Below, piece by piece: positions 38,917-57,456 of a DNA stretch of 64,000 bases. Position 1 is the first letter of the stretch, and each line of letters starts with the position of its first letter. This DNA comes from Rhodocyclaceae bacterium (lineage in GTDB: Bacteria; Pseudomonadota; Gammaproteobacteria; Burkholderiales; Rhodocyclaceae): positions 1 through 64,000 of the forward strand of contig JACFMQ010000010.1 of assembly GCA_019455325.1 (NCBI GenBank). Reading direction: 5' to 3'. The notes under the pieces are model-generated. The model did not search any database, had not been told where the DNA came from, and worked only from the letters and a program-made list of their open reading frames with translations. Both the position numbers and the translations under genes were made by a program.

Positions 38917-40065
38917 ATGAGGATCGCTGTTTCGCGTTTTGTCGTACTGTCGTCCGTGGTCGCGCTGGCCGCCTGCGGCGCCGTCGGGCTGGAAACCAAG
39001 AAGGTCGAGTACAAGTCGGCGGCCAAGGCGCCGACGCTGGAGACGCCGCCCGACCTGATCGCGCCGGCGCGCGACGACCGCTTCGCCGTGCCCGACTCCG
39101 GCGGCCGCGGCCAGGCGACGTTCTCCGCCTACGCCAACGAGCGTACGCCGGAAGCGCGCGCGGCCAAGGGCAGCGACGTCCTGCCGCAGGTCGACAAGGT
39201 GCGCATCGAGCGCTCCGGGTCGCAGCGCTGGCTGGTCGTTCCCGGCACGCCGGACAAGCACTGGGATCTGATCCGGGAGTTCTGGCAGGAGACCGGCTTC
39301 CTGATCAAGCTCGAACTCCCCGAGGCCGGGGTGATCGAGACCGACTGGGCCGAGAACCGGGCCAAGATTCCGCAGGACTTCCTGCGCAATTTCCTCGGCC
39401 GGGTGATCGACTCGCTGTATGCGACCGCCGAGCGCGACAAGTTCCGCACGCGCCTCGAACCCGGCAGCGAGCCGGGCACGACCGACATCTTCATCAGCCA
39501 CCGCGGCATGTACGAGATCTTCGTCTCGGAAGGCAAGGACCAGACCCGGTGGCAGCCGCGGCCGGCCGATCCGGAGCTGGAAGCGGAGATGCTGCGTCGC
39601 CTGATGGTGCGCTTCGGCACCGAGGAGCAGCGGGCGACGGCGGCCGTGGCCGCGGTGCAGGATCGTCCCGCCGAGCGCGCCAAGATCGTGCGCGCCGGTG
39701 CCGGCGGCGCCAGCGTCCTCGAAGTGCAGGAACGCTTCGACCGCGCCTGGCGGCGCGTCGGCCTGGCGCTCGACCGCGTCGGCTTCACGGTCGAGGACCG
39801 CGACCGCACGAAGGGGCTCTACTTCGTCCGCTACGTCGATCCGGAGGCCGATGCCACCTCGAAGAAGGACGGCGAGGGCTGGCTGGCGCGCCTCAACCCG
39901 TTCAAGAGCAGCGAGGCGACGGCGCTGTCCAAGGTGCAGTACCGCATCCACGTCGTCGATGCCGACGACAGGTCGACCGTCAGCGTGCTCGCCCGCGAGG
40001 GCGGCGCCGACGATTCGGAAACGGCGCGGAAGATCCTCGGCCTGCTGCACGAACAGTTGAAATAA
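38917..40065 (+). CDS. bamC: outer-membrane assembly lipoprotein BamC, 3' end altered by element insertion
   Basis: A 382-residue lipoprotein with lipobox LAAC (Cys20), an unstructured segment up to about residue 80, and two helix-grip domains. It is an accessory subunit of the Bam complex that folds outer-membrane beta barrels. Its last codons (LLHEQLK) lie in the 20-bp repeat that flanks the element downstream. The same bases recur at 57433-57452 followed by G and TGA. So the original gene ended AAG TGA and overlapped the GTG start of the metallohydrolase now at 57453. The present stop TAA comes from the element. The protein sequence is unchanged. Confidence 0.93.
   Translation: MRIAVSRFVVLSSVVALAACGAVGLETKKVEYKSAAKAPTLETPPDLIAPARDDRFAVPDSGGRGQATFSAYANERTPEARAAKGSDVLPQVDKVRIERSGSQRWLVVPGTPDKHWDLIREFWQETGFLIKLELPEAGVIETDWAENRAKIPQDFLRNFLGRVIDSLYATAERDKFRTRLEPGSEPGTTDIFISHRGMYEIFVSEGKDQTRWQPRPADPELEAEMLRRLMVRFGTEEQRATAAVAAVQDRPAERAKIVRAGAGGASVLEVQERFDRAWRRVGLALDRVGFTVEDRDRTKGLYFVRYVDPEADATSKKDGEGWLARLNPFKSSEATALSKVQYRIHVVDADDRSTVSVLAREGGADDSETARKILGLLHEQLK
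40042..40061 (+). repeat. left attachment site attL inside the 3' end of bamC
   Basis: CTGCTGCACGAACAGTTGAA, identical to 57433-57452; the flanking bases differ on both sides. A direct repeat at the two ends of an integrase-bearing segment is the expected product of site-specific recombination. Confidence 0.92.
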
Positions 40066-40102
40066 AGCTTGGCGTCGTTCCGAGTTGTCTCGGGGCCCCA
40101 TC

Positions 40103-40131
40103 AAAAAGCCCGGTGGTACCGGGCTTTTTTT
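40103..40131 (+). terminator. Rho-independent terminator just inside the element
   Basis: A 12-bp perfect stem (AAAAAGCCCGGT / ACCGGGCTTTTT) with a 3-base loop followed by T residues. It lies inside the element and now ends the dapA-bamC transcript that formerly ran on into the gene at 57453. Confidence 0.88.
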
Positions 40132-40256
40132 GTTTTTGTCGTCTTGCGTCGTCTATTGCAATCGCCTATCTTTCGTGTAGCCAGATGAGTGGCTGCAGCT
40201 TGAGCTGCACACGTCGATTGGCGAGGTTGGTCTTTTGACTACACAGTGAGGGCGGC

Positions 40257-41558
40257 ATGGGCAAGCTCAAGGACATCGAGGTTCAGGCATGGGTGAGGGC
40301 GGGCAACCCTATTGCCGGCAAGTCTGACGGCGACGGTCTGACCTTCACCCTGTCCGCCAGGGGAACCGCTGCATGGGTGTTCCGCTATCGCTTGGGCGGC
40401 AAGCAACGTGAACTGACCATCGGCAACTACCCGACCATCACCCTCAAGCGTGCCCGCGAGCTGGCGACCGAGGCCAGGGCCAAGGTTCAGCAGGGCATCG
40501 ATGTGGCCCGCGAGAAGCAGGAGCGCAAGATCGGGTTGGCCGCCGCCGGCACGGTCAAGGAACTGTGCGAGGAATACTTCCGGCGCACCGTCGAGGGGCG
40601 CGTCAGCCGGCCGGACATCACCCGGGAAATGCTGGACAGGGATCTGATTCCCAAGCTCGGCCGGCTGCGGATCGCGGAGGTCAAACCGCTGGATATCGAC
40701 GGCATGATCCGGGCAATCGTGGATCGCGGCGCTCCGGTCATGGCGAACCGGGTGCTGGCGACGACCAAGGCGGTATTCGATTACGCCATCCGGCGGCACT
40801 GGATCGAGCAGAACCCGGCAGCAGCGTTCCGGCGTATCGATGCCGGTGGTGAGGAAAAGGCAAGGACGCGGGCGCTGTCCGAAAACGAACTGACCCAGTT
40901 GCTCAAGGCGCTGCGGGGAGCGGGGCCGGTTTTCAGTACCTACCACCTCGCCGTCAAGCTGCTGCTGGTGACGGCGGTTCGAGTGAGCGAGTTGATCGAA
41001 GCGGCATGGGCCGAATTCGACCTTGATTCAGAGCAACCCGTCTGGCGTCTGCCGGCGGTTCGCGTCAAAACGGGCAAGAACATGGGTGGCCGGGACTTCA
41101 CGGTTCCTCTGCCCGCCGCGGCCGTGGAATGGTTGCGGGAGATCAAGCGGACATCCTTCGCCAGCGACTACGTTTTCCCGGCACGGCGACGGATGGGCAA
41201 GCCAACCATGTCTCCAGCGACGCTGAATTGGGCGATGGGTGAGATCAACCACGGCCTGGAGCATTTCACCCTGCACGATCTGCGGCGCACGGCGCGAACG
41301 CATCTTGCCCGGCTCGGCGTCGCCCCTCACGTCGCCGAACGTTGCCTGAACCACAAACTACCCGGCATCAACGACACCTACGACACGCACGACTACCTGG
41401 CCGAGCGCCGGCTGGCGCTGAATGCGCTGGCCGACCTGCTGATGAGGCTGGACAGGGGAGAGGCGGAGAAGGTCGTGCCGATCAAAAAGGGTTCATTGCG
41501 CTTTACCGGGGAAGGCAGCCTTGATCTTCAGGAAGAAATAGGGAGAGTCGCGACATGA
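40257..41558 (+). CDS. int: tyrosine recombinase (P4-type integrase)
   Basis: A 433-residue integrase with an N-terminal DUF4102 arm-binding domain (about 1-95, GNYPTITLKRARELA), a core-binding SAM-like domain, and a catalytic domain with Arg242 (AVRVSEL), His340 and Arg343 (LHDLRRT) and the nucleophile Tyr375 or nearby Tyr380 (DTYDTHDYLAERR). It sits 195 bp from attL, as usual for this class. Its stop overlaps the next start (ATGA). An inverted repeat GCAGCT-TG-AGCTGC at 40195-40208 lies before it and may be a control site. It should catalyse integration into the bamC 3' end. Confidence 0.94.
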   Translation: MGKLKDIEVQAWVRAGNPIAGKSDGDGLTFTLSARGTAAWVFRYRLGGKQRELTIGNYPTITLKRARELATEARAKVQQGIDVAREKQERKIGLAAAGTVKELCEEYFRRTVEGRVSRPDITREMLDRDLIPKLGRLRIAEVKPLDIDGMIRAIVDRGAPVMANRVLATTKAVFDYAIRRHWIEQNPAAAFRRIDAGGEEKARTRALSENELTQLLKALRGAGPVFSTYHLAVKLLLVTAVRVSELIEAAWAEFDLDSEQPVWRLPAVRVKTGKNMGGRDFTVPLPAAAVEWLREIKRTSFASDYVFPARRRMGKPTMSPATLNWAMGEINHGLEHFTLHDLRRTARTHLARLGVAPHVAERCLNHKLPGINDTYDTHDYLAERRLALNALADLLMRLDRGEAEKVVPIKKGSLRFTGEGSLDLQEEIGRVAT

Positions 41559-42172
41559 CCACCATCAGCCAAGACGCAGCAGCGTCCATTCACCCGAACG
41601 CCCTCACCAGCCGAGAATTATCCGTCGTCCGCAAGGCGATGAAGATTATCGAATCCAAGTGCTTCAAGAACGCCGATGTCCTCTACTACATGGAGGATTT
41701 CGAGCGCTATCTGATTCTGCGCTTCGCCGGCCTCGCCCATGAACAAGGCCACGTTGTCTATCTCGACATCGACCGTCGCCTTATCGACGCGGACGCGATA
41801 GCCTTCGGCAATCAGAGCAAGGTCTCCTGGGACATTCGCCACATCGCCTTCCGAGCGATGACCCTTGGGGCCGAGCATGTGGTGATGGCCCACAACCATC
41901 CGTCTGACAACCCCATGCCGTCCGAGGCTGATGTGCAGAACCTCATCGCCTTCGAGAGGGGCCTGTCTATGGTCGGCATCAACCTGCTCGACTCGTTCGT
42001 CGTCACCTCGAAGCGAATCACCAGCATCAAGGAACACCGCGAACGCATCGACGAGATGCGAAGTCGTGATCTCGTGGCCGAGCACGAACGGCGCAGAGCC
42101 GAACGCCGGGCAAAGATTGCCGCCACCAAGGCCGCCAAGCGGGCGGCTCAACTTCAAGGAGTCGCAGCATGA
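41555..42172 (+). CDS. RadC-like JAB-domain protein
   Basis: A 205-residue protein with the JAB/MPN metalloprotease motif of RadC (VVMAHNHPSDNPMPSEAD: His-x-His-Pro-x-Ser-x-Asp type) in the middle, a basic coiled C-terminus, and no helix-hairpin-helix domain. RadC-like genes are frequent passengers of phages and islands; their role is not settled despite the DNA-repair label. It overlaps both neighbours by four bases. Confidence 0.85.
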   Translation: MTTISQDAAASIHPNALTSRELSVVRKAMKIIESKCFKNADVLYYMEDFERYLILRFAGLAHEQGHVVYLDIDRRLIDADAIAFGNQSKVSWDIRHIAFRAMTLGAEHVVMAHNHPSDNPMPSEADVQNLIAFERGLSMVGINLLDSFVVTSKRITSIKEHRERIDEMRSRDLVAEHERRRAERRAKIAATKAAKRAAQLQGVAA

Positions 42173-42543
42173 ACGCACTGATCATTCACGGCGGGAACGC
42201 CGATACCCTGACCATGAGCAGCCTTGAGATTTCCGGGCTGGTCGATTCTCGCCACGACAAGGTGAAGCAGAGCATCGAACGCCTTGTGGAACGCGGGATT
42301 ATTGTCCAACCCCCAATGGGGGAAGTGCCCAACGACGGCCCAGGCCCGAAAATCATCGCCGGCATGAACGCATTGACCATTGCCAACACTGCCGATATGA
42401 CCATGAGCAGCCAGGAGATTGCGGAACTGACCGGCAAAGAACACCGCAACGTGATGCGCGACATTCGCGCCATGTTGGCTGAACTGCACGGCGACTATTT
42501 CTTCCTGAAGATCAAGGCTGCCTTCCCCGGTAAAGCGCGATGA
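42169..42543 (+). CDS. Rha-type phage regulatory protein with duplicated N-terminal motif
   Basis: A 124-residue protein with two copies of the Rha/antirepressor N-terminal motif: MSSLEISGLVDSRHDKVKQSIERL (about residues 16-39) and MSSQEIAELTGKEHRNVMRDI (about 79-99). Each copy fits a short winged-helix-like DNA-binding unit; the usual C-terminal domain is missing. Rha proteins interfere with phage growth in some hosts. The tandem layout could arise by fusion of two adjacent regulators. Confidence 0.75.
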   Translation: MNALIIHGGNADTLTMSSLEISGLVDSRHDKVKQSIERLVERGIIVQPPMGEVPNDGPGPKIIAGMNALTIANTADMTMSSQEIAELTGKEHRNVMRDIRAMLAELHGDYFFLKIKAAFPGKAR

Positions 42544-42631
42544 ACCTCAAAAAGGGGGTGGCGTGAGCGGCTTGCAATCGCCCAGTGTCGTGCTACGATG
42601 TTTATACATGGATAAACTTTGGAGGGCAGTC

Positions 42632-42880
42632 ATGCAACTGCAATTGGGGAAGTGGGGGAACAGTCTGGCCATCCGTCTGCCGGCGGAATGCGTGCGTGCT
42701 GCCGGCTTGCGCGAGGGGGATGTCGTGGAGGCCGAGGTAACGCCGGTCGGCGAAATCAGGCTGACGCCGATCCAGTCTTTCGACAAGGGGGCGTTTTTGG
42801 CGCGTCTGCGCAAGTTGCGCGCCAAGATGCCGATGACCGAGCCGGTGGTCGAGCAGATGCGCCGGGAGGCCCGCTACTGA
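42632..42880 (+). CDS. vapB: AbrB/MazE-like antitoxin (VapB)
   Basis: An 82-residue SpoVT-AbrB swapped-hairpin antitoxin. LGKWGNSLAIRLPAECVRAAGLREGDVVEAEV is the DNA-binding fold; the C-terminal tail should wrap the toxin. The start at 42632 has GGAGG upstream. Its stop overlaps the toxin start (TGATG), the standard layout for autoregulated modules. A TTTATACATG stretch at 42600-42610 may be part of its promoter. Confidence 0.9.
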   Translation: MQLQLGKWGNSLAIRLPAECVRAAGLREGDVVEAEVTPVGEIRLTPIQSFDKGAFLARLRKLRAKMPMTEPVVEQMRREARY

Positions 42881-43302
42881 TGGTCTATCTGGACACCAGC
42901 GTTGTCGTTCCCCTGTTCGTGACCGAACCGGCCAGCAACGCAGTGGATGCCTGGCTCGATGCGCAGGAAGTTCCCCTGATGTCGTCGGACTGGATTGTGG
43001 CCGAGTTCGCCAGCGCGCTATCCATCAAGGTCAGGCGCGGGGCGCTCGGCGCGAAGCTCGCGCAGGCCGCATGGAAGGACTTCGAAGATTTCTGCCGGAG
43101 CGGGCTGCGGCTGGTTCCGGTGGGCCGGTCGGCGTTTCTGCTGGCCGCCGATCTGGCCCGCGATGCTCAGAGCGGATTGCGTGCGGGAGACGCCTTGCAT
43201 CTGGCTGTCGCCCTTGAAACTGGTGCGGCGGATTTCGCAACCGCCGACGTGCAGCTTGCCGCCGGCGCCGAAGCAAAGGGATTGAACGTGACGAGGTTTT
43301 GA
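42880..43302 (+). CDS. vapC: PIN-domain toxin (VapC)
   Basis: A 140-residue PIN ribonuclease. The acidic metal site is Asp5 (YLDTSVV), Glu42 (IVAEFASAL), Asp104 (LRAGDALHLAVA) and Asp123 (FATADVQLAAGA). It would cleave tRNA or other RNA when free of VapB. It may stabilise the element by addiction. Confidence 0.92.
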   Translation: MVYLDTSVVVPLFVTEPASNAVDAWLDAQEVPLMSSDWIVAEFASALSIKVRRGALGAKLAQAAWKDFEDFCRSGLRLVPVGRSAFLLAADLARDAQSGLRAGDALHLAVALETGAADFATADVQLAAGAEAKGLNVTRF

Positions 43303-43395: not shown

Positions 43396-43578
43396 ATGGC
43401 TAGCAGCGATTCTATCCCGTGCCCCGATACCACTGCCCATAAATCCCTTGCCGGTGCCTGTTTCACCGCCTTCGGCAGGTATCTGGAAGGCGTGATTCTT
43501 CCAATCTCCGGCGCGAAGGACGCGCTATCCCAGTTTGAAGAAGCGATTATTCAGGGAAAGCCGGAGGGCGCAGCATGA
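43396..43578 (+). CDS. hypothetical element protein, 60 residues
   Basis: A short protein with no recognised family. It starts behind AAAGGAACTTCACATC and its stop overlaps the next start (ATGA), which supports it as a real gene. The segment GTGAA-AGGAAC-TTCAC before it is a small inverted repeat. Confidence 0.55.
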   Translation: MASSDSIPCPDTTAHKSLAGACFTAFGRYLEGVILPISGAKDALSQFEEAIIQGKPEGAA

Positions 43579-43937
43579 ATATTACGACAGATGAAGCCGC
43601 CCGCATCGCTGGTGCCAAGGCGTGCATGCGTGCCTTGGATGAAATGATCAAGTCCGCAGAGGCTTTCCACGATGGCGTCGAAAAGTCGACCGAAGTGGAA
43701 GAGGCTGCGCATTATTACGGCTCCCGTCTCCGTGATGCCAAGGCTTTTGCCGATGCCATCGGGCCGCTCAGCCCATACCAGGAAGGTGTGATCATCGCCT
43801 TGGCCGAGTACATTCATTCATCGACCACGACCGGCGAACCGAGTCTCGAACTCTGGACGCCTTGTGTCGCCTTGACTGCGGATCAATATCGCAAGAAGGT
43901 TAAATACTTGGCTGCGCGCATGGCGGAGGAATCATGA
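43575..43937 (+). CDS. hypothetical element protein, 120 residues
   Basis: A predominantly helical protein with alternating acidic and Ala-rich segments (ALDEMIKSAEAFHDGVEKSTEVEEAAHYY). No family recognised. It overlaps the preceding gene and the following short frame by four bases each (ATGA), which indicates translation as one unit. Its role is unknown. Confidence 0.65.
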   Translation: MNITTDEAARIAGAKACMRALDEMIKSAEAFHDGVEKSTEVEEAAHYYGSRLRDAKAFADAIGPLSPYQEGVIIALAEYIHSSTTTGEPSLELWTPCVALTADQYRKKVKYLAARMAEES

Positions 43938-44023
43938 CCAACCTGATCATTCGACCCATTGCCCCGATGCAGAACGCTACCCTCGGCGGCGAATACTTCA
44001 TCGTGTCGTTCAAGGAGTTGTGA
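43934..44023 (+). pseudogene. 29-codon frame resembling the C-terminal tail of an MqsR toxin
   Basis: The peptide ends GGEYFIVSFKEL, close to the end of E. coli MqsR as I recall it (VLIVSFKEK), and it lies one base before an intact MqsA-type antitoxin, exactly where mqsR ends in mqsRA operons. It looks like the 3' remnant of a deleted toxin gene that now has a new ATG overlapping the gene before it. The match is short, so the assignment is tentative. Confidence 0.5.
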
Positions 44024-44024
44024 G

Positions 44025-44429
44025 ATGGCATCGAAATGGCATGGCAAGCAGTGCCCCCTCTGCAACGAGGGAATCCTGCGCGACGGGAAGATCAAGCGGC
44101 GGCTTGAGTATCGCGGCCGGATCTTCGAATCGACGGTGAAAGGGGCGTTCTGCAGCCACTGCGCGGATGGGTTCCCCCAACATGACGAGCGGGACGAGGC
44201 GGCATGGCTCGCGTTCCGTGATGGTGTTGATGCCGAGGAAATGGCCGAGCTGGCGCGCATCCGCAAGAAGTTGGGTCTGACCCAGCAGGAGGCCGCGGGA
44301 TTGGCCGGAGGCGGCAAGAACGCATTCTCCCGCTACGAGCGTGGACAGGCAAAACCCGTGGCGGCCGTGGTCAATCTGTTCCGTCTGCTGGATCGCCACC
44401 CTGATCTGCTGCGGGAGTTGCAGGCGTGA
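44025..44429 (+). CDS. mqsA: MqsA-like antitoxin/transcription factor
   Basis: A 134-residue protein with an N-terminal zinc site (Cys10, Cys13, Cys43, Cys46; CPLC and CSHC) and a C-terminal helix-turn-helix (RIRKKLGLTQQEAAGLAGGGKNAFSRYERGQAKP) that closely matches MqsA of E. coli in length and order. MqsA binds MqsR and represses its own promoter. Here no full toxin is present, so it may now serve only as a regulator or protect against an external MqsR. Confidence 0.88.
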   Translation: MASKWHGKQCPLCNEGILRDGKIKRRLEYRGRIFESTVKGAFCSHCADGFPQHDERDEAAWLAFRDGVDAEEMAELARIRKKLGLTQQEAAGLAGGGKNAFSRYERGQAKPVAAVVNLFRLLDRHPDLLRELQA

Positions 44430-44433
44430 CGTC

Positions 44434-45237
44434 ATGAAGCAATCAACCAGTGATGCGGGTGTAACAGCGGAGAATCGGAAGACGAGATACCTACCCTACC
44501 TAAAGGCGCAGGACATTTTGCACAAGCGCATCAACGCAACTGTTGAAGACATGGTTGGTTGGGTGTGGTGCGGCCCGGAAGACGGCGGGCTGGCGGCATA
44601 CCTAAATGCAAACGAACTTGATCCGCCGCCGCGCTTTTATTTCCAATACGGCGGTCCCGATTCGGGCCTCAACTACATGGCGGAATTGCTGGGCTGCTGG
44701 TTCCTTGCCTCCGATCTGGAAGAGTTTTCTCCGATATCGCGGTTTATATCGGGCGCTGTGCTGCGCGACAGGTGGGTGCCGCTGCTTGGAAGCGCGGACG
44801 CTGTTGTCAACTTCATCGCCACCAAAGAGCGGGAGTCGCGCATCCTCCCTTTCCACCCACTGACCGGCGAAACAAACATCAGCGGCGGTGACTACATGCC
44901 GGACTGGACGACGGCGCTATTTGTTCTTTCGCACGTCAAAGCAATAGAGGCAGAAGAATTCCCGGCAGATGCGCTACCGAATCAAACAAGCGTGGCGAGT
45001 GCGACCAACAACGAAACGCCACGAGATCGGCGGATTCGAATCGCCAGCATGAGAAAAAACGGGATGAGCGGCGCAGAGATCGGGCGCCTCGAAGGAATAT
45101 CCGTGTCAATGGCGAACCGGCTGGCTGCCGAAGGGGGGAAAATCCTTCAAAAGCAGGCTGAACAGGCTACCTCTCTTATCGGGCAACTGACCTCACAAGG
45201 GGTTGCAGGGAAAAATACCAAAACCAAGACAGGATAA
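44434..45237 (+). CDS. hypothetical protein with C-terminal helix-turn-helix
   Basis: A 267-residue protein. The N-terminal 190 residues match nothing that I know and are rich in Trp, Tyr and acidic residues (DMVGWVWCGPEDGG, DYMPDWTTALF). The C-terminal part (RDRRIRIASMRKNGMSGAEIGRLEGISVSMANRLAAE) has the look of a resolvase-type helix-turn-helix, so it may bind DNA. It begins four bases after the MqsA stop and ends inside an inverted repeat at 45197-45260. Confidence 0.65.
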   Translation: MKQSTSDAGVTAENRKTRYLPYLKAQDILHKRINATVEDMVGWVWCGPEDGGLAAYLNANELDPPPRFYFQYGGPDSGLNYMAELLGCWFLASDLEEFSPISRFISGAVLRDRWVPLLGSADAVVNFIATKERESRILPFHPLTGETNISGGDYMPDWTTALFVLSHVKAIEAEEFPADALPNQTSVASATNNETPRDRRIRIASMRKNGMSGAEIGRLEGISVSMANRLAAEGGKILQKQAEQATSLIGQLTSQGVAGKNTKTKTG

Positions 45238-45339: not shown

Positions 45340-45618
45340 ATGAAAATCATTCGCCCCCGACAGGCCGCAGAAAAATGCGGCATTGGGCTTCCCACGATTT
45401 GGGCTTGGGCGCGCGATAAGCCGGATTTCCCGAAGCCGGTACGCTTGAGCGGAAATGCCAGTGGGTTTATTGAAGAGGAAATCGACGCTTATCTGGAGCG
45501 GAAAGTCGTCGAATACCGCGCCGCCCCAGAAAAACGCGAAACGGCTGTGGTCGCCGCGCAAAAATCGGCGCAGATGAGGCGGCAACGGAAGATGCAGAGG
45601 GGTGACCATGCGGCCTGA
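45340..45618 (+). CDS. AlpA-like excisionase/regulator
   Basis: A 92-residue protein with an AlpA/MerR-like winged helix in the first 55 residues (RPRQAAEKCGIGLPTIWAWARDKPDFPKPVRLSGNASGFIEEEIDAYLERK) and a basic tail. AlpA-type proteins act as activators or excisionases in prophages and are master regulators in phage-inducible islands. It is preceded by the CTGCAAC repeat cluster. Confidence 0.88.
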   Translation: MKIIRPRQAAEKCGIGLPTIWAWARDKPDFPKPVRLSGNASGFIEEEIDAYLERKVVEYRAAPEKRETAVVAAQKSAQMRRQRKMQRGDHAA

Positions 45619-45694: not shown

Positions 45695-45889
45695 ATGCGG
45701 TCACAAAGCGTCAAGCCGGCCGGTGCGCGCGCGCGAAAACCGCTTGCCGGCTCCTGGCGTACCGGCGCCGCACCAGCCGGCCGCCTCGGTCAATACGAAG
45801 CTGAACGATCCGCCCTGCAGGTTGCCGGCCTGCGGCCAGACGAATACGCGCGCGCCTGCCTCCGGGCCGCGCGCCGGGCGAAGGTTTGA
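45695..45889 (+). CDS. hypothetical element protein, 64 residues
   Basis: A small basic protein whose C-terminal half (YEAERSALQVAGLRPDEYARACLRAARRAKV) looks ordered and helical, while the N-terminal half is rich in Arg and Gly. It ends three bases before the replication gene. No family recognised; a DNA-binding accessory of replication is possible but unproven. Confidence 0.45.
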   Translation: MRSQSVKPAGARARKPLAGSWRTGAAPAGRLGQYEAERSALQVAGLRPDEYARACLRAARRAKV

Positions 45890-45891
45890 CC

Positions 45892-46677
45892 ATGAGCATT
45901 CTCGTCATGGCGCGGGTATGGCAGGACTACCCTGGTTCCGGGGGCTCGGAACTGCTCGCCTTGCTGGCCCTCGCCGACTGGAGCGACGACGACGGACAAT
46001 GCTGGCCGTCCATGGGCGCCATCGCTGAAAAGACGCGGCTTTCCCGCTCCCAAGCGCAGCGGATCGTACATGGTCTCATTGCCGACGGCTTCGTCCTCGT
46101 AGTCGGCAACGAAGCCGGCGGGAAACCCGGATCGACTCGACGATATCAGATCAACCTCGCAGCCATGACGGGCCGCATGGATGCTACCCCTACGGGTCGC
46201 ACCGGTGCGACGGGTAGCGTGCATGCGACGGGTCGCGCCAGTGCGGCAGAGGGGTCGCATGGATGCGGCGAGACGGGTCGCACCGGTGCGACCCAAACCA
46301 TCAGTGAACCGTCAACAACCGTCAATACGCGGGAGCAGGCTCCCGCTTCCATCCCAGCGCCGGGCAAGACGAAATCCGAAAGCCAAACCCTGAAAACCTT
46401 CCTGGCGTCGTGCAAGGCATCCGGGGTGAAGCCGATCCCTGACGACGACCCGATTTTCAGCTACGCGGAGCAGGTCGGTCTTTCGGACGAAATGCTGGCG
46501 GTTGCCTGGGCGGAATTCAAAGCCCGCTACCTGCCGACCGCCAAGCGGCAAAAGGACTGGCGGCAGCACTTCCGTAACGCCGTCCGTCGCAACTGGTTCA
46601 GCCTGTGGTTCCTGAAGGCGGAAGAGGAAGCCCGATGGACGACCGCCGGCGAACAGGCACGGAGGATTGCCGCATGA
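45892..46677 (+). CDS. phage O-like replication initiator
   Basis: A 261-residue protein with an N-terminal winged-helix domain (residues 1-85, ALADWSDDDGQCWPSMGAIAEKTRLSRSQAQRIVHGLIADGFV), a low-complexity middle (about 92-135), and a C-terminal domain rich in Trp. The middle part is the translation of six palindromic DNA repeats, like the iterons of the lambda origin inside gene O. Gene order O-like then DnaB fits initiator and helicase. I prefer the ATG at 45892 to the TTG at 45886. Its stop overlaps the dnaB start (ATGA). Confidence 0.82.
   Translation: MSILVMARVWQDYPGSGGSELLALLALADWSDDDGQCWPSMGAIAEKTRLSRSQAQRIVHGLIADGFVLVVGNEAGGKPGSTRRYQINLAAMTGRMDATPTGRTGATGSVHATGRASAAEGSHGCGETGRTGATQTISEPSTTVNTREQAPASIPAPGKTKSESQTLKTFLASCKASGVKPIPDDDPIFSYAEQVGLSDEMLAVAWAEFKARYLPTAKRQKDWRQHFRNAVRRNWFSLWFLKAEEEARWTTAGEQARRIAA
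46165..46294. repeat. intragenic palindromic iterons, candidate replication origin
   Basis: About six imperfect units of 18-24 bp, each beginning ACGGGtcGC or GGGTCGC and ending in gTGCGac. The last is GGGTCGCACCGGTGCGACCC (46275-46294), a perfect palindrome; another near-complete copy is at 46195-46212. All unit lengths are multiples of three, so the reading frame is kept. Confidence 0.75.
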
Positions 46678-48131: not shown

Positions 48132-48151
48132 TTGCACAGAAGGTGTGCGCC

Positions 48152-48448
48152 ATGAGTAACCCATGGCTTGACGCTGCCAGCGCCGTTGCTGCCGCGGTTG
48201 CGGATTTTCCGGAGTTGCATGAGAGCCAGGCGCTCGGCGGTATCGCCGAACAGATTTTCAGTGCGCAGTCGGAACTCGCGCGGATCGCCGCCGCCCTCAC
48301 CGCCGACAATCCGGAGATAGCCGATGCCATCGTGAGGGTTGCCGACCTGCTGACGGATGCCGTCGGCACGGCCCGCCGCCTCTCCGGCCATCCCGAGCCG
48401 CCACTGGCCGTCGCCTGCTTCCATGCCGCGCCGGATATCGTCCAATGA
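48152..48448 (+). CDS. hypothetical element protein, 98 residues
   Basis: A helical, Ala-rich protein (DAASAVAAAVADFPELHESQALGGIAEQIFSAQSELARIAAALTADNPEIADAIVRVADLL) that starts at the ATG at 48152. No known family. It overlaps the next gene by four bases. Confidence 0.6.
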   Translation: MSNPWLDAASAVAAAVADFPELHESQALGGIAEQIFSAQSELARIAAALTADNPEIADAIVRVADLLTDAVGTARRLSGHPEPPLAVACFHAAPDIVQ

Positions 48449-50368: not shown

Positions 50369-51528
50369 GCAACCCCCTGATCGCCCTCGGCCATGCCATG
50401 CGCGGCGCCGTACCTGCAGCGATGGAAATCGACCACCAGCGCGAGAATCAGCGCCGCTTCGATCTCCAGGAATCCCGTGCCGCCGAAGAACTCGGCATGC
50501 GCAAGCAATCGCACGGCGCGCAAATGGCCGTGGCCGGCCTGCAGAGGATTAAGCTGCAACGCGAGACCGACGACGATACAGCGCTGCGCGAGCACCTGAC
50601 CGCCTGGCGCGATGGTCGGCAGAAGATCCAGGCTGGCGACTTCGCTGCATTCGAGATGGCTTTGTCGGAATACAACACCAATCAGGGGTGGTCCGCCGAC
50701 GGTTTCACGATGAAGCCCCGCCTCGACGACAACGGTCGGCAGGTTCTCGACCGCTATGATGCCACCGGCAAGCTGATCGACTCCAGCCCACCGCTGACGC
50801 GGGGCGCAGTGCTGGGCCTGTTCGATATGGGCATGGCCGGGAAAATGAAATGGCTGAACCCGAAGCGCTACGACGAGGCTGCGGCTCGCGCCGCCGCTCT
50901 GCAAGCGAAAGATGCCGAGTGGGAGCACAAAGAAAAGGTCGCCACCGGGAACAACGCGACCTCCCTCGAAGTCGCTCGCATCAGTCAGAGCGCGGCAGAT
51001 CGCCGGCATGCCGGTACGCTCGCCCTGCAACGGGATCGGCTGGAGTTCGACAAGGCGCGGGGTGGGCTGACGCTGGCGCAGCAGCGTAGCAATTTCGAGA
51101 TCGACGCTGCGAGGGAAATGCTCGACGGTATGAGCGAAGATGAAGTCCGCCGTCGCACCACGCCGACAACCGCGACCGGCCGGGAAAATCCCGACTTTGA
51201 TCCGGCGCTGGCGCGGGCCGCGAAGCTCGCCAGCCGGCGCCGGATCGGCGATGACGACTGGTTCGATCAGCGGCAAGGCCGGCCGCCGTCCAACACCTTT
51301 GCCAGCAAGCCGCTCAACCAGATGACCGATGCGCAGCTCGAGCAGATCGGCCGCCAGGCTGGCAATGAAGGCCGATTGAAGATTGATGCCGAACTTGCCC
51401 GCCGTTCACTGGCCGGTATGAAGGGAGCGGAGGGCTACAGCGTCGGCCAGTACGTCGAGGGCAAGGGCTTTCAAGTGCTTGACGCCAGCGGCCGGCCGGT
51501 TTCCTGGTTGCGGAGAAGAGCGCAATGA
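50365..51528 (+). CDS. hypothetical virion-associated protein, 387 residues
   Basis: A long, mainly helical protein with a coiled-coil first half (MEIDHQRENQRRFDLQESRAAEELGMRKQS, HKEKVATGNNATSLEVARISQSAADRRH) and a polar, disordered C-terminal part. No enzyme motif. Helix-rich internal proteins of this size encoded directly before a giant protein are common among ejection proteins of short-tailed phages; this assignment is by context only. It overlaps both neighbours by four bases. Confidence 0.55.
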   Translation: MSNPLIALGHAMRGAVPAAMEIDHQRENQRRFDLQESRAAEELGMRKQSHGAQMAVAGLQRIKLQRETDDDTALREHLTAWRDGRQKIQAGDFAAFEMALSEYNTNQGWSADGFTMKPRLDDNGRQVLDRYDATGKLIDSSPPLTRGAVLGLFDMGMAGKMKWLNPKRYDEAAARAAALQAKDAEWEHKEKVATGNNATSLEVARISQSAADRRHAGTLALQRDRLEFDKARGGLTLAQQRSNFEIDAAREMLDGMSEDEVRRRTTPTTATGRENPDFDPALARAAKLASRRRIGDDDWFDQRQGRPPSNTFASKPLNQMTDAQLEQIGRQAGNEGRLKIDAELARRSLAGMKGAEGYSVGQYVEGKGFQVLDASGRPVSWLRRRAQ

Positions 51529-54500
51529 GCGGCTTCGAACTGGTTCCGCTCGACAGCAGCGAAGTGGTGGAAGGTGGCTGGGAGCTTGCACCCATCGAAC
51601 CCGACCGCCCGTCTGTGCTGCGGAATGTCGCGCTGAACAACCCGGCAACCGCCATCGGCGAGGTTGCGATGAATCTCGGTAGCCAGATGGTCGCGTTGCC
51701 AGTTGCTGGCCTTGCGGGACTGGTGACCGAAGCCGGCAGCGTCGTTGGCCTGACCGACAAGACCGGCGCCGACGTGGTGCATTCGGTCGGCGATGCCTTG
51801 ACCTATCAACCGCGCGGCGAACTCGGGCAAACCGCTGCGCAGGTCGTTGCCTATCCGTTCGAGAAACTGCACGAGGCCGCGACATGGGCCGGGGAGAAAA
51901 CCCTGCAAGCGACTGGCAGCCCCGGCGCGGCAACGGCCGTGCATACCGCCGTCGAAGGTGTGTTGCCGATGGCAGCATTTCCCGCCGCGCGTGCCGGCCG
52001 TGCCGCGTTGCGCGAAGCCGAATCGCCCAAGGCGATGACTGCGCGCGGACTGCTCAACTTGCACCATGAGCCATCGCCGGCGGTTCTTCAGCGCTTGATG
52101 CGCCTGTCCGAGGAAGAGGCGGTTGCGCTGTTCGAGAACTGGCAGGCGAAGAAATCGGGAGGCGGGAATGCAGCATTGGGCAGTGATGGCAACATACGAC
52201 GCATGGCTGCGGATGCGGAACCGCTGCCTCAACCCGAAGGACAAGGACTGGCACAACTACGGCGGCCGGGGCGTGACGATCTGTCCGCAATGGCTGACCA
52301 GTTTCCAGACGTTCCTGAAGGACGTAGGCCCGAAGCCGGAGCGGAGCCGGTTGCTGTGGCTGGGGCGGCTGGACCTCGATGGGAATTACACCCCGGAGAA
52401 CGTAGCCTGGCTGAGGCATCAGCGCCAGATTTCGCACCGGAGGTATTGTCACCGGATACCGGTTGGCGGGCAGGCCATGACAATCCAGGAGGCCGGACCG
52501 GTTATCGGCTTGCCGGCGATGACCTTGCGCCGGAGATTGCTGGTGCGGAGGCTCGACCTGTCGGAGGCGGTGCAGTTGGGACGGATGCCGTATCGCCGCG
52601 ATTCGAAATTCCTGACGCACGATGGACAGACTTTGAGCGTGCCGGAATGGGCGAAGAAGCTCGGAATTCGAGTGCGGACGTTGCGCGAGCGGATACAGCG
52701 CGGCGATCCGAGCCCACTGACGCCGGGATTGCGCCGGTCGCCGACCCGGTACAAGACAGCCTCGCCCGCGCCGAGCGCACCTTGAGCGAGCAGGGCAGCA
52801 TCGCCGGTTTCATCGACTACTACAACCGCTACGTCCATGATGGCAACACGGTCGAGTCCTTCATCCGGCACCCGGACGGCGCGCATAGCTTGCGCGTAGT
52901 CGACAGGCACGGCACGCACACTGTGCGGATTCCGCCCGACTTCCTGAATCAATACTTCGACGCCTTGCGCGATCCGGCGAAGGTTGCCGAAATCGAGGTG
53001 CCCAATCGGGGAGAGATGGTGTTGGGACGGAGCCTGCGCGAGATAGACGACGCAACGCTGTCCCGATTGGCCAACATGAGCGCGATGGCGCCGGCCGCGC
53101 GGGTAAAGGTGACGCGCGAGATCAGGCGACGCGAGGCGGAAATGGCACGCAGCGAGGCAGGCCGGGGAATGCCGGCGGTTGCAGAAGCCGTGTCGGAGCC
53201 AGTTGCCGAGCAGGTACGTATCGCCGACAAGGCCGTGACGGAATTCGACGATGCCGCGCTGATGCGCATCATCGAGCGCCCGAGCTATGGCGAAGCTGCG
53301 AAGGCGAAGGCCCGTGCCGAGATTGAGCGCCGTGCCGCCATTGCCAACCTTCCCGAAGCGACGCCGGAGACTCAGGCGATGGCCGCCGAAGTCCAGAACG
53401 GCAAATGGAGCCCCGGTGCCAACTACGCGCCTTTCGTGGACCAGATGCGCGCGCCGAAGGCTGAGGCCGGGAGCGTCGCCGATCTGCCCGCCCCGATCCG
53501 CCGCGAACACATCATCAAGGACTTCGCCAATGTGCTGGGCGCCACGGTCTATGAGGGCCGCGTGAGGGGCAAGAACCGCCTTGGCTTCTTCCGTCGTGGG
53601 AACGAGGAAACCCGAATCAAGAACGCCAACGACATCGAGGTCGCCGCTCACGAACTGGCCCACCTGATCGACAGCCGCGTTCCCGAACTGTCCAATGCGT
53701 GGCGATCCGACAAGGCGCTCCGCGAGGAATTGAAGTCGGTCAGCTACGATCAGAAGAGCGTCCCCGAAGGCTTCGCCGAGAGTGTCCGCCTCTGGATGAC
53801 GCAGCCCGAGACGTTGGAGTCCCGCGCGCCCAAGGTGGCTGCCTGGCTTGACGACTTCGCCGCCAAGCATGAGTACGGCCCCGCGATGAAGAAGGCGCAG
53901 GAGCAGATGACCGGCTGGTTCGGGCAGGATGCCTTGAACCGCGCCCGCTCGAAGATCGGCACGGAAAAGTCGCTGGCGGAATACTTCGACCGCGCTTTCG
54001 ACAAGTTCCGGCAATCCACCGTCGATGACCTGCACGGCATCATGCAGATGGAACGCGACCTGACCGGCAAGCTGTCGCCAGTCGGCCCCTACGAATCCGC
54101 CCGCCTGTCCCGCGCCTCGGCCAGCATCGCCGATGGTGCGGTACGGTTCGGTCATCCGGTGAAGAACCCCGATGGCTCGTTCAAGTTCGCCGGCAAGGGA
54201 TTGGAGGAAATACTACAGCCCGTTGCGAAAAACCTTGACGACGCATTGCTCTACTTCGTCGGCCGCTCGGCCAATGAACTGATGGCGCAGGGGCGGGAGC
54301 ACCTATTCACGCGCGGCGAAATCGACGCGATGTTGAGGCTCAAGACCCCGGAGCGCGCTAAGGCGTTCGAGGAATACCAAGCATGGAATCGCGGCATCCT
54401 CGACTTCGCCGAGGCGCAGGGCATTATCAACCCGGAGACGCGCCGGCTGTGGCAGCGCACGCAATACCTGCCATTCCATCGTGTCGATCAACCGGGAGGC

Positions 54501-56462
54501 ATCAAGAGCAAGCCCGGCGATTGGGCTGGCGTCCAGGCACTGACCGGCGGCACGACGAACCTGCGCGACATCCTCGGCAACATGATCGGCAACGCCGCCA
54601 TGCTGCTCGACAAGGCCGTGAAGAACGAAGCCCGCCTGAAAGTCGCCGACCTCGCCGACGGCACGAAGTCCGGCAAGTGGATGGTCAAGATCGAACCCGG
54701 CGAACGGCCGGTCAAGATCGGCGGCGATCAGGTTCTGGATGCGATGTTCAAGCGCTATGGCATCGCGGCCGATGGCGAAGCGCCGGCCTTCTTCCAGTTC
54801 ATGCTTCGAGGCCAGCCGCCGGCCGGGAACAACGTCGTGGCCGTGCTGCGCGACGGCAAACCGACCTGGTACGAAGTCGGCGACCCGATCCTCTACCGCG
54901 CCCTGACAGCCATCGACCGGCCGGCGCAAAACTGGCTGGTGCGGATGCTCGGCGCACCCAAGCGGATCGGTCAGGCCAGCATCACGGCTACCCCGGACTT
55001 CTGGATGGCGAACATGGCCCGCGACACGCTGATGGGGGCCGTCATGTCGCGCGCAGGCTTCTGGCCGATCCTCGATTCCTTGCAGGGAATGCGGCTGCGC
55101 ATGACCAACGATCAGCTCTACAAGGACTTCATCGCCAACGGCGGCGGCCTGTCCTCGATCTATCTGGATGAGGGCGCGCTACGAAGCAAGCTCAAGCGCT
55201 TCTACCAGCGGCAGGGCATCAACTACAGGACTGTCCTCGATGCCCCGGAAAAGCTGCTCAACGCCATCGAGACGCTGGGTGATGCCTTCGAGATGAGCAC
55301 ACGCTTGGGCGAATACCGCCGGGCCGTCGAGCGCGGCGAGCATCCCCGTCATGCCGCCTACCTCGGGCGCGAGGTCTCGACGGACTTTGCGATGCGCGGT
55401 GATTCGAAGACGCTGGGCTTCCTGTACGACACGGTGATGTTCCTCAAGGCGGCGACGGTCTCATGGGATCGACTGGCGCGCGGCGCGACGATCGACCCGA
55501 ACAGGGGCGCCATCGCGGCGAAGACGTCGGCCATCGCCGGCATGAGCGCGGCGCTCTATCTGCTTAACCGCGACGATCCGCGCTACGCCGATTTGCCGGA
55601 TTGGGACAAGGATTCCAACTGGCACATCTTCGTCGGCGACCAGCATTTCCGCTACCCGAAGATCTGGGAGATCGGGGCCGTCGCCTCGATGGCCGAGCGC
55701 AGCACGGAAAAGCTGATGACCGAAGATCCCGAAGGCTTGGGTAAGGACTTCGCGCGCATCCTCGGCAACACCTTCCACCTCAACCTGATGCCACAGATCA
55801 TCGCTCCACCCTACGAGCAGGCTACCAACCGTAACAGCTTCACCGGCTCGCCCATCGAGACGCCGGGCATGGAGGGCGTGCAATCCTTCCTGCGGGCCAA
55901 GCCCGGCACCAGCGAGACCATGAAGGAGCTTGGCATGGCGACCAAGGACATGCCCGAGTGGGCGCAGGTCAATCCGGCCAGGACGGAGGCGTTGCTCCGA
56001 GGCTATTTCAACACCTGGGGGCTGTACGGCCTGATGCTGACCGACCAGACGTTCTTCGGCGACAAGCTGCCCGAGAAGCGCGCCGACGAGCTGCCTGTGG
56101 TCAGGCGGTTCTACGCCAACGAACCGGCGAAAAACACCAAGTTTGAGAGTGAGTTCTACGACCTGCTGACGGAAGCCCGTCGGCTGCGCGGAACCCTGCG
56201 CGAGCTTGATGAGTTGGGCCTGCGCCAGTTCGCTGACGAGAAGGAGCAAAGCCCGCTGGCCGGCGAGGCGAAGCCGCTGGAGCGTGCGCAGAAGAGCCTA
56301 TCGGCAATCAACCGCGACATGCAGGCCGTCCGCCGCGATCCGGCCCTGACGCCGGCCGAGAAGCGCCAGAAGCTCGATGTGCTGATGGTCGAGCGAAATG
56401 CGCTGCTCAAGGGGGCGGTGTTGGAATCGAAGAAGGTACAGAAGGAGAAGGAAAATGAGTAG
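51525..56462 (+). CDS. giant polyvalent protein with zincin-like motif and LPD38-like domain
   Basis: A 1645-residue protein. Residues 1-210 have hydrophobic helices (NLGSQMVALPVAGLAGLVTEAG). Residues about 215-420 are low-complexity Ala/Gly/Pro/Arg sequence that coincides with the nested gene at 52168-52785. HELAH at 709-713 (IEVAAHELAHLID) is a metallopeptidase-type HExxH motif. The part from about 1140 (ITATPDFWMANMARDTLMGAVMS, DSNWHIFVGDQHFRYPKIWEIGAVASM) resembles large polyvalent-protein domain 38. The C-terminus is coiled coil. Such proteins are packaged and injected with phage or plasmid DNA. It could protect or process incoming DNA or act during ejection. Confidence 0.8.
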   Translation: MSGFELVPLDSSEVVEGGWELAPIEPDRPSVLRNVALNNPATAIGEVAMNLGSQMVALPVAGLAGLVTEAGSVVGLTDKTGADVVHSVGDALTYQPRGELGQTAAQVVAYPFEKLHEAATWAGEKTLQATGSPGAATAVHTAVEGVLPMAAFPAARAGRAALREAESPKAMTARGLLNLHHEPSPAVLQRLMRLSEEEAVALFENWQAKKSGGGNAALGSDGNIRRMAADAEPLPQPEGQGLAQLRRPGRDDLSAMADQFPDVPEGRRPEAGAEPVAVAGAAGPRWELHPGERSLAEASAPDFAPEVLSPDTGWRAGHDNPGGRTGYRLAGDDLAPEIAGAEARPVGGGAVGTDAVSPRFEIPDARWTDFERAGMGEEARNSSADVARADTARRSEPTDAGIAPVADPVQDSLARAERTLSEQGSIAGFIDYYNRYVHDGNTVESFIRHPDGAHSLRVVDRHGTHTVRIPPDFLNQYFDALRDPAKVAEIEVPNRGEMVLGRSLREIDDATLSRLANMSAMAPAARVKVTREIRRREAEMARSEAGRGMPAVAEAVSEPVAEQVRIADKAVTEFDDAALMRIIERPSYGEAAKAKARAEIERRAAIANLPEATPETQAMAAEVQNGKWSPGANYAPFVDQMRAPKAEAGSVADLPAPIRREHIIKDFANVLGATVYEGRVRGKNRLGFFRRGNEETRIKNANDIEVAAHELAHLIDSRVPELSNAWRSDKALREELKSVSYDQKSVPEGFAESVRLWMTQPETLESRAPKVAAWLDDFAAKHEYGPAMKKAQEQMTGWFGQDALNRARSKIGTEKSLAEYFDRAFDKFRQSTVDDLHGIMQMERDLTGKLSPVGPYESARLSRASASIADGAVRFGHPVKNPDGSFKFAGKGLEEILQPVAKNLDDALLYFVGRSANELMAQGREHLFTRGEIDAMLRLKTPERAKAFEEYQAWNRGILDFAEAQGIINPETRRLWQRTQYLPFHRVDQPGGIKSKPGDWAGVQALTGGTTNLRDILGNMIGNAAMLLDKAVKNEARLKVADLADGTKSGKWMVKIEPGERPVKIGGDQVLDAMFKRYGIAADGEAPAFFQFMLRGQPPAGNNVVAVLRDGKPTWYEVGDPILYRALTAIDRPAQNWLVRMLGAPKRIGQASITATPDFWMANMARDTLMGAVMSRAGFWPILDSLQGMRLRMTNDQLYKDFIANGGGLSSIYLDEGALRSKLKRFYQRQGINYRTVLDAPEKLLNAIETLGDAFEMSTRLGEYRRAVERGEHPRHAAYLGREVSTDFAMRGDSKTLGFLYDTVMFLKAATVSWDRLARGATIDPNRGAIAAKTSAIAGMSAALYLLNRDDPRYADLPDWDKDSNWHIFVGDQHFRYPKIWEIGAVASMAERSTEKLMTEDPEGLGKDFARILGNTFHLNLMPQIIAPPYEQATNRNSFTGSPIETPGMEGVQSFLRAKPGTSETMKELGMATKDMPEWAQVNPARTEALLRGYFNTWGLYGLMLTDQTFFGDKLPEKRADELPVVRRFYANEPAKNTKFESEFYDLLTEARRLRGTLRELDELGLRQFADEKEQSPLAGEAKPLERAQKSLSAINRDMQAVRRDPALTPAEKRQKLDVLMVERNALLKGAVLESKKVQKEKENE
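52168..52785 (+). CDS. HNH-like homing endonuclease nested in another frame of the polyvalent gene
   Basis: A 205-residue protein in the +1 frame relative to the host gene. It has its own strong ribosome-binding site (GGGAGG five bases before ATG 52168). The N-terminal half matches the phage HNH family pattern Y-x2-W-x2-M-x2-RC-x-NP ... YGGRGVTIC-x2-W ... LDxDGNYTPENVAW. The C-terminal half has two NUMOD-like helix-turn-helix repeats (MTIQEAGPVIGLPAMTLRRRLL and LSVPEWAKKLGIRVRTLRERIQRG). The usual catalytic His pair is weak (LGRLDLDG), so nuclease activity is uncertain. The host frame stays open across the whole insert. Confidence 0.75.
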   Translation: MQHWAVMATYDAWLRMRNRCLNPKDKDWHNYGGRGVTICPQWLTSFQTFLKDVGPKPERSRLLWLGRLDLDGNYTPENVAWLRHQRQISHRRYCHRIPVGGQAMTIQEAGPVIGLPAMTLRRRLLVRRLDLSEAVQLGRMPYRRDSKFLTHDGQTLSVPEWAKKLGIRVRTLRERIQRGDPSPLTPGLRRSPTRYKTASPAPSAP

Positions 56463-56709
56463 CGAGAAAACCGCCCTGCGCCGCGCGCAGGAACTGACTT
56501 TGAGGCTGCTGGCCGAGATGGAAGCGATGAACGAGCACAGCAACACGCTTCAGGCCATTGGCGATGTGCTTGGCATGGAGGGAGATGCCGTCTCCGCGCG
56601 CCTCAATGAGGTATGGCTACAAGCCACCAGCCTGCCGACACGGATCGGTGCCATGCAGAAGCTGGCCGACACCATGCAGACGCTTGGCATGACGGAGGAT
56701 AAGCGGTGA
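56455..56709 (+). CDS. hypothetical element protein, 84 residues
   Basis: A small helical protein (LRRAQELTLRLLAEMEAMNEHSNTLQAIGDVLGM). It begins inside the end of the polyvalent gene (8-base overlap) and overlaps terS by four bases. No recognised family; its position next to terS may hint at a packaging role. Confidence 0.6.
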   Translation: MSSEKTALRRAQELTLRLLAEMEAMNEHSNTLQAIGDVLGMEGDAVSARLNEVWLQATSLPTRIGAMQKLADTMQTLGMTEDKR

Positions 56710-57317
56710 AGCCCGGCGAACTGACGCAGAAGCAGGAGAACTTCTGCTTGGCCTACATCGAGGCCGGCAACGCCAGCGAAGCCTATCGGCGGGCCTACGA
56801 TGCCGGGAAGATGAAGGACAAGACGATTTGGGAAAGAGCGAGCACACTGCTTGCCAACAGCAAGGTTGCAGCAAGGGTGGCCGAGCTGCGCCAGCAGGCG
56901 GCGAGCGCAGTTGTTGCCAATGAGGCGCGTGTGCTTGAGGAGTTGGCTCGCATCGGCCTGATCGATCCTGGCCGGCTATTTGCCGACGATGGCTCGCTGC
57001 TGCCGATCAAGCAGATGCCACCGGAAGTCCGGGCGGCCATCGCTTCGGTCGAGATCGAGGAGATCGACGCCGACGGCAAGGTGATCGGCCGCGTGAAGAA
57101 GGTCAAGCTGTGGGACAAGAACTCGGCAGCCGACAAGCTGCTGCGGCACTTCGGCAGCTACGAGCGGGACAACCGGCAGCGACCTGGTATCTTCGGTAGT
57201 GTGCCCCGCGATGTGCTGAGGGAACTCGTCGAGCGGTTGGGGGGATCAAGGAGCGCAGGGGGAGATAGGCGTCCATCGTGCATAGACCGTGGCGCGGAAA
57301 GTGGTTTGGGTGGATGA
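56706..57317 (+). CDS. terS: small terminase subunit
   Basis: A 203-residue protein of the terminase_2/TerS type: LTQKQENFCLAYIEAGNASEAYRRAYDAGKMKDKTIWERASTLLANSKVAARVAEL is the DNA-binding helix-turn-helix signature, followed by a domain with EARVLEELARIGLIDPGRLFADDG and a tail. TerS recognises the packaging site. No large subunit follows; attR is 115 bp away. In satellites a lone TerS redirects helper packaging, whereas in a damaged prophage it would be a leftover. Confidence 0.9.
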   Translation: MKPGELTQKQENFCLAYIEAGNASEAYRRAYDAGKMKDKTIWERASTLLANSKVAARVAELRQQAASAVVANEARVLEELARIGLIDPGRLFADDGSLLPIKQMPPEVRAAIASVEIEEIDADGKVIGRVKKVKLWDKNSAADKLLRHFGSYERDNRQRPGIFGSVPRDVLRELVERLGGSRSAGGDRRPSCIDRGAESGLGG

Positions 57318-57353
57318 ATTCAGCGGCTAGAATCGCTGGTAACGACAGTATGG

Positions 57354-57398
57354 GAGTAGCCCGGTGAGTAGCCATATGCCAATCATTATTGATATAAT
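57354..57398 (+). promoter_or_regulatory. outward-facing extended -10 promoter and direct repeats at the right end
   Basis: TG-A-TATAAT at 57390-57398 is a perfect extended -10 element pointing out of the element; the usual -35 position is poor, as expected for such promoters. Just upstream GAGTAGCC occurs twice (57354-57361 and 57366-57373), 12 bp apart, possibly integrase arm sites. Confidence 0.65.
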
Positions 57399-57420
57399 CC
57401 ATTGGAAACATGTGGATAGG

Positions 57421-57456
57421 ATGAATATTGATCTGCTGCACGAACAGTTGAAGTGA
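57421..57456 (+). CDS. 11-codon minicistron ending in the bamC tail
   Basis: ATG at 57421 opens a frame MNIDLLHEQLK whose last seven codons are the regenerated bamC 3' end and whose TGA overlaps the GTG start of the next gene. The element thus replaces bamC by a short translated leader with the original coupling junction. The upstream TGGATAGG is a modest ribosome-binding site. Confidence 0.55.
   Translation: MNIDLLHEQLK
57433..57452 (+). repeat. right attachment site attR
   Basis: A perfect copy of attL (40042-40061). It is followed by GTGATCC, which restores the ancestral AAG-TGA end of bamC overlapping the GTG of the downstream gene. Confidence 0.92.

Follow-up and report, generated by a model that had tools for sequence, protein, structure and literature searches.

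What is the 17.4-kb block of DNA that interrupts a core operon in a Rhodocyclaceae bacterium, and how could it move between cells? The block lies within a stretch of 64,000 nucleotides (GenBank assembly GCA_019455325.1, contig JACFMQ010000010.1, positions 1 to 64,000), hereafter called the window, where it stands between the host genes bamC and a metallo-hydrolase gene. Our analysis indicates, with a probability of about 65%, that the block is an integrated element of the phage-satellite type, from a lineage resembling the phage-inducible chromosomal islands (PICIs) that would have captured an ejection cassette from a podovirus; its mobilisation by a helper phage is likely but unproven. The insertion site comprises the following features:

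38018..38902, + strand, dapA (host), first gene of the split operon (coordinates of the open reading frame, ORF; name recognised from sequence)
38917..40065, + strand, bamC (host), protein intact, end now AAA TAA
40042..40061, + strand, attL core, 20-bp direct repeat
57433..57452, + strand, attR core, 20-bp direct repeat
57453..58220, + strand, metallo-hydrolase (host), downstream gene of the operon (name recognised from sequence)

The sequence CTGCTGCACGAACAGTTGAA was found without mismatch at 40042-40061 and at 57433-57452, forming a perfect 20-bp direct repeat around the element, and on the + strand of the window no more than three distinct 20-mers occur more than once. At the left copy, the bamC frame closes LLHEQLK with AAA TAA, and the right copy reads AAG TGA, within which lies the GTG start (57453) of the metallo-hydrolase gene. 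Joining the two flanks in silico gave ...GAACAGTTGAAGTGATCCGC, in which LLHEQLK and its stop codon are restored together with the overlapping GTG. These observations bear out the initial annotation, which had described the perfect repeat at the end of bamC and 17.4 kb further on, the overlap of AAG TGA with the GTG, a BamC protein kept intact with a TAA stop supplied by the integration, and the exact rebuilding of the operon upon removal of the element. The GC content is 0.624 in the element interior and 0.715 in both flanks. A second perfect 20-base repeat (TCCGGTCCCTTCTCGGCAAA), unrelated to the first one, is located in the left part of the window at 597 and 16110, 15.5 kb apart.

The empty site was sought in relatives with a bamC probe of 463 bases, which matched 45 of 61 genomes including the window's own (44 of the 60 others), and 29 of the loci in these 44 genomes were examined. 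The metallo-hydrolase gene adjoins bamC in 21 of the 29, and in 12 its match starts on the last base of the bamC match. All five same-genus loci show an uninterrupted bamC-metallo-hydrolase junction; a sixth same-genus genome, 65% complete, gave no probe match. The other eight loci, all outside the genus, carry different genes downstream of bamC, and no integrase was seen there by eye in the 1.3-1.5 kb examined. The continuous junction anticipated by the initial annotation is thus present in close relatives, and the unrelated sequence that it regarded as counter-evidence occurs only at these eight distant loci. Moreover, the 20-bp core, with at most one mismatch, was present in 14 of 297 family genomes and in two copies only in that of the window, and nine further core loci that were inspected are all bamC tails, four of them with the same AAGTGATCCG junction. 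Site-specific integration into the bamC 3' end is supported, with BamC conserved and the operon exactly restorable.

Twenty-one frames of the element were taken as genes, all of them open and on the + strand; the scans covered both Pfam and PHROGs for 20 of them and PHROGs alone for the remaining one (125 aa). Where homologues are mentioned, they belong to the clade of 21 rows described below:

40257..41558, + strand, tyrosine integrase, 433 aa (Arm-DNA-bind_3, Phage_int_M, Phage_integrase)
41555..42172, + strand, RadC-like JAB protein
42169..42543, + strand, Rha-type regulator, short (profile positions 1-29 of 91)
42563..42880, + strand, MazE-like antitoxin
42877..43302, + strand, PIN-domain protein, start codon not settled
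43396..43578, + strand, 60-aa protein, no Pfam or PHROG match
43575..43937, + strand, 120-aa protein, no Pfam or PHROG match
43959..44429, + strand, MqsA-type antitoxin/regulator
44434..45237, + strand, 267-aa protein, no Pfam or PHROG match
45340..45618, + strand, AlpA-like regulator/excisionase (PF05930, 4.8e-7)
45886..46677, + strand, RepO-like replication initiator
46674..48077, + strand, DnaB-type helicase
48092..48448, + strand, 118-aa protein, no Pfam or PHROG match
48445..49029, + strand, 194-aa protein, homologues in 5 other clade members
49117..49497, + strand, 126-aa protein, weak matches only
49494..49871, + strand, 125-aa protein, no PHROG match
49841..50368, + strand, 175-aa protein, weak tape-measure-type matches, homologues in 3 other clade members
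50365..51528, + strand, 387-aa protein, homologues in 17 of the 20 other clade members
51525..56462, + strand, 1645-aa polyvalent protein, HExxH at residues 709-713 (bases 53649-53663), LPD38 at residues 1351-1526
56455..56709, + strand, 84-aa protein, partial match to the terminase small subunit (TerS) family phrog_1206 (3.3e-9)
56706..57317, + strand, TerS (Terminase_2)

In these scans, no family of large terminase (TerL), portal or coat protein was recognised among the 21 frames. A defence scan of five element frames gave only a marginal RmrA match, on the MqsA-like protein. The nearest relative carries an MqsA-like gene (L089:14370-14807) that is 90% identical to that of the window and stands elsewhere, in the opposite orientation to the LPD38 gene; since the other proteins shared by L089 and the window element are only 27-80% identical, a recent exchange of the MqsA-like gene is likely.

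The late region is dominated by the 1645-aa protein, whose LPD38 domain scored 158.8 bits against a curated cut-off of 27. Its zincin-type motif, HExxH with a downstream Glu, is conserved, as H87, E88, H91, E126 and E130 are invariant in 21 sequences. The predicted structure of the LPD38 core had a mean predicted local distance difference test score (pLDDT) of 63.6, and Foldseek returned no PDB match for it at E <= 0.001. Among five further LPD38 proteins that were scanned, an SLT transglycosylase was found in two and an InPase domain in three. No family was assigned to the 387-aa protein. Its predicted structure reached a mean pLDDT of 73.8 and a predicted template modelling score of 0.37, and pattern scans of viral contigs found none of its relatives. 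In the phage contigs L137 and L141, homologues of the 387-aa and LPD38 proteins directly follow a protein of a DNA-ejection family, the 387-aa homologue coming first and LPD38 after it.

Relatives were collected from viral contigs and genomes using stretches of the LPD38 protein and TerS. When 42 LPD38 rows were placed in a maximum-likelihood tree, that of the window clustered with 20 others in a single clade of 21 (100/100), which stands beside P22-like phage contigs. Fifteen rows had been left out as copies, short or distant (L094, L095, L128, L134, L135, L140, L146, L155, L156, L158, L161-L165), as had L148 and G474, in which the matching ORF piece was below 600 aa; the label "integrase/DnaB" on tree rows denotes likeness to the window's own integrase and DnaB. 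Local models built for P22-type proteins (coat, head-closure and ejection) matched none of the 21 clade rows and at least one of them matched 11 of 16 phage-side rows, three of the 11 (L137, L138 and L141) being seeds of the models. The 16 rows are a hand-made list that omits L148 and includes L139, L142, L144, L145 and L157, which have no model match. Besides, a Pfam scan of 93 of the 132 unassigned ORFs (>=200 aa) from capsid-less loci, after 39 that in our judgement belonged to the chromosomal flanks of G460, G572, G474 and G476 had been set aside, returned 25 families without TerL, portal or coat; they include integrases, helicases, primases, transposase parts, cargo and Peptidase_S74. On the phage side, where 46 of 81 ORFs were scanned in the same way, the families detected include P22 coat (on 3 ORFs) as well as P22 portal, scaffold, gp7 and adaptor. 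For G146, which is outside the 93-ORF set, all ORFs of at least 100 aa were compared with the local models, and six scanned singly with PHROGs gave one match to nuclease families and no structural match. A similar capsid-less content recurs in genomes from five or more genera, where the integrases and replication genes differ, and the hosts of the lineage are probably Betaproteobacteria, judging from one named genome (Thiobacillus) and a reading of the order. In the G460 element, the genes for the integrase and LPD38 flank an IetA/IetS pair of anti-phage defence (L176:12790-16231), and in L126 a 477-aa ORF just upstream of the 387-aa homologue (4416-5846) matches the virion structural family phrog_8003.

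Bounded or circular clade members measure 13.4-19.1 kb. The G146 element lies between 20-bp repeats and spans 13.4 kb, identical ends of 127 bp close two other members into circles (L133/L199, 19,090 bp; L143/L198, 18,298 bp), and L092, of 16.9 kb, has 19 identical bases at its ends, which is suggestive only. The G460 element appears longer, at about 21 kb by gene positions, and no convincing end repeats were found in G369, G460 and G474. TerS was recognised in 11 of the 21 clade members, ten by likeness to that of the window plus G369, and because it was recognised in only part of them, TerS-led packaging cannot be general in the clade. Outside the clade, G081 (L120/L121) contains an LPD38 element (about 30% identical) of 12.9 kb between 44-bp repeats, with no obvious capsid gene by eye; as this distant element is also bounded, LPD38 elements without a capsid may have more than one origin. 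Judging from their sequence, the repeats of G146 and G081 resemble tRNA ends. Both circular members (L199:8324-8923 and L198:9311-9961) encode, downstream of LPD38, a secreted-looking protein with repeated PL-W-NSP-like motifs and no PHROG match.

From this gene content, a life cycle may be proposed in which the integrase would excise the element as a circle through the 20-bp core and its own initiator and helicase would replicate it. TerS would then recruit the TerL of a helper phage, and the element would exit in helper particles, probably of P22-like podoviruses, its own 387-aa and LPD38 proteins being particle-internal and co-injected.

The element edges contain three further features that bear on how the split operon could continue to be expressed:

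40103..40129, + strand, intrinsic-terminator-like hairpin (twelve pairs) with a T tail, just after bamC (1 found, 0.3 expected; -18.5 kcal/mol, z -1.84)
57369..57398, + strand, outward-facing promoter-like site, extended -10 TGATATAAT (57390-57398), weak -35 box
57421..57456, + strand, mini-ORF MNIDLLHEQLK*, ATG at 57421, its stop overlapping the metallo-hydrolase start as the bamC stop did

With a terminator after bamC and a promoter and stop/start mini-ORF at the far side, the edges look operon-friendly. In the integrated state, the element's own terminator would end the dapA-bamC transcript, the outward promoter would restart transcription of the metallo-hydrolase gene, and the mini-ORF would recreate the stop/start overlap of the bamC tail, so that coupling would be kept. 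The alternative that promoter, terminator and mini-ORF are there by chance, or for the element only (attP architecture) and not for the host operon, falls just short of an even chance. The right edge is AT-rich (GC 0.30-0.40), the terminator may merely insulate the integrase, and the sequence before the mini-ORF ATG is a weak ribosome-binding site at best. Furthermore, the promoter and mini-ORF are sequence matches within this AT-rich edge, and the extended -10 arose in 97 of 20,000 simple shuffles of the last 139 bases, both of which count against an operon-friendly design. On the other hand, TGATATAAT is the only TGNTATAAT (TGnTATAAT) on either strand of the 64-kb window, where 0.07 are expected, it faces the metallo-hydrolase gene, and the mini-ORF shares the reading frame of the bamC tail.

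A broader and more tentative proposal, to which we would give somewhat less than even odds, is that an undescribed lineage of capsid-less satellites loads its own ejection cassette into a helper head and injects a giant multi-enzyme protein ahead of the DNA, the protein consisting of a protease-like core with exchangeable transglycosylase or pyrophosphatase parts, and splices itself into operons with a terminator and a promoter/mini-gene.

Several observations weigh against a helper-mobilised satellite. Regarding the helper, no helper prophage was found, the host genome having been searched for a P22-type coat gene without finding any, and the sole phrog_2 TerL match of that genome lies within another small island. 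Regarding the relatives, most are contig fragments, and for this reason the bounded and circular members carry the argument from absence; of five relatives searched for end repeats, only two, G146 and the distant G081, gave convincing ones, and among the five bounded or circular members TerS was recognised in the window and L143/L198 and not in L133/L199, L092 and G146. The local coat model is insensitive, since apart from its three seeds it matched nothing but a fragment in L148, so that the contrast between clade and phages rests on the ejection and head-closure models and on the Pfam scan, which covered ORFs of at least 200 aa. Some virion-type matches were also obtained in the capsid-less loci. 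Peptidase_S74, usually a tail-spike chaperone, was found on two of the 93 ORFs, and PHROGs placed a virion structural family in three of them, among the first 25 of 94 families; the 477-aa ORF of L126 is one example. The circle L199 encodes a 266-aa protein (7527-8324) with weak head-maturation-protease matches (about 50 residues, 2.9e-6) besides other protease matches, which we would tentatively read as an ordinary protease domain. Finally, the predicted fold of the 387-aa protein had no viral match at E <= 0.001.

The small island that holds the TerL match (G000 contig C7, about 13446-22113; L196/L197) comprises an integrase, a 209-aa regulator-like ORF, an 819-aa ORF, a resolvase-like ORF, a 142-aa ORF and TerL (468 aa), with no coat gene evident by eye, and may be a second satellite-type island of the same genome.

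An alternative origin, which we consider unlikely, is a decayed prophage, in which a temperate P22-like phage would have become stuck in bamC after losing all genes beyond TerS. Homologues of the LPD38 and 387-aa proteins do occur in podovirus-like phage contigs, TerS is the last gene before attR, at a point from which a phage usually continues with TerL, some relatives retain other virion-type genes, and the LPD38 gene of G474 is split into two ORFs. However, the late genes of the window element are open, the longest over 1645 codons, similar capsid-less content recurs across the genera of a well supported clade in company with different integrases and replication genes, and two clade members are circles. 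An integrative plasmid-like or conjugation-mobilised island, with the LPD38 protein as an entry effector, appears even more improbable: polyvalent proteins occur on conjugative elements too, according to PMC5512222, and circular clade members carry replication genes, but no relaxase or transfer family appeared in the Pfam lists of the window element and the 93 ORFs of its relatives, TerS is present in the element, and the LPD38 core had no match in 72,556 plasmid records.

The history of the integrase was followed in relatives at E <= 1e-60, which were found in 16 of 399 genomes of the order, the window's own included. The 15 others are 36-53% identical, and none lies beside bamC within the 1.5 kb examined on each side, so the search for other integrases at bamC that the initial annotation had proposed found none among them. 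In seven of the 15, the tail of yicC is directly upstream of the integrase, and G572 combines a 43% identical integrase with the same late cassette after a gene that resembles RNase R by eye. On these grounds, the integrase seems exchangeable within the lineage and bamC seems to be a new or rare integration target. The yicC-site integrases of the same order (L096-L098, L100, L102-L104) are 43-53% identical to that of the window and likewise sit 3' of a gene end, whereas the target of the latter is bamC. No title on bamC as an integration site was found in the open-access literature, which is no proof of absence, and pattern scans of viral contigs found no relatives of the integrase. The core agrees with the tails of the seven yicC genes at 12-15 of its 20 positions, and random 60-base flank stretches reach 13 in 0.9% of cases, but the agreement falls in two different registers, so a switch of target from yicC to bamC is only a lead. 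A search of the retrieved stretches for right-hand copies of these yicC tails gave none that was convincing.

The element can be compared with several known systems. The LPD38 phage-type polyvalent proteins described in PMC5512222 share with the 1645-aa protein the LPD38 domain and a zincin-type HExxH, to which relatives add SLT or InPase, whereas the elements that encode such proteins here have no recognisable TerL, portal or coat gene. The word "satellite" is absent from the main text of PMC5512222, and no title on LPD38 proteins of satellites was found in the open-access literature, which again does not prove absence. Closest among phages are the P22-like podovirus contigs L137, L138 and L141, with LPD38 homologues 49-52% identical to that of the window and, in L137 and L141, a homologue of the 387-aa protein; they differ in carrying coat, head-closure and ejection genes. 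Thalassomonas phage BA3 shares LPD38 alone, at 30% identity over 62% of the protein, and none of 54 phage records with an LPD38 match was at least 60% identical.

Among satellites, Gram-negative PICIs are described as having an integration, a Bro, a replication and a late zone, in that order; their late genes were acquired from helper prophages, and int, alpA and pri are both conserved and essential (PMC10111431). The likeness to PICIs, including the helper-embedded ones, consists of a size of 10-20 kb, mostly one-way genes, an integrase with AlpA, a replication zone and a phage-derived late zone (PMC10111431), and the window element, of 17.4 kb and with 21 of 21 frames on the + strand, agrees in size and orientation. 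The order of zones is followed loosely, since its AlpA gene lies 3.8 kb from int, after the toxin-antitoxin genes; pri is absent, with the RepO-like initiator and DnaB helicase instead, and where a Bro-type regulatory zone would be expected only the short Rha match was found. Because AlpA is displaced and pri is missing, we call the element PICI-like and not a PICI. Its late zone, unlike that of PICIs, holds the LPD38/387-aa cassette and TerS, and none of the genes of an autonomous prophage (TerL, portal, coat) was recognised in the element. Known satellites take over the capsid or the packaging of their helper; if our reading is true, satellites that bring their own injected proteins could also tailor the content delivered to the next host cell, for example so as to weaken its defences. 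Helper-embedded PICIs sit in a prophage late gene and the window element in host bamC, where the intact junction with the metallo-hydrolase gene offers a clean model of an element that spares the operon it splits.

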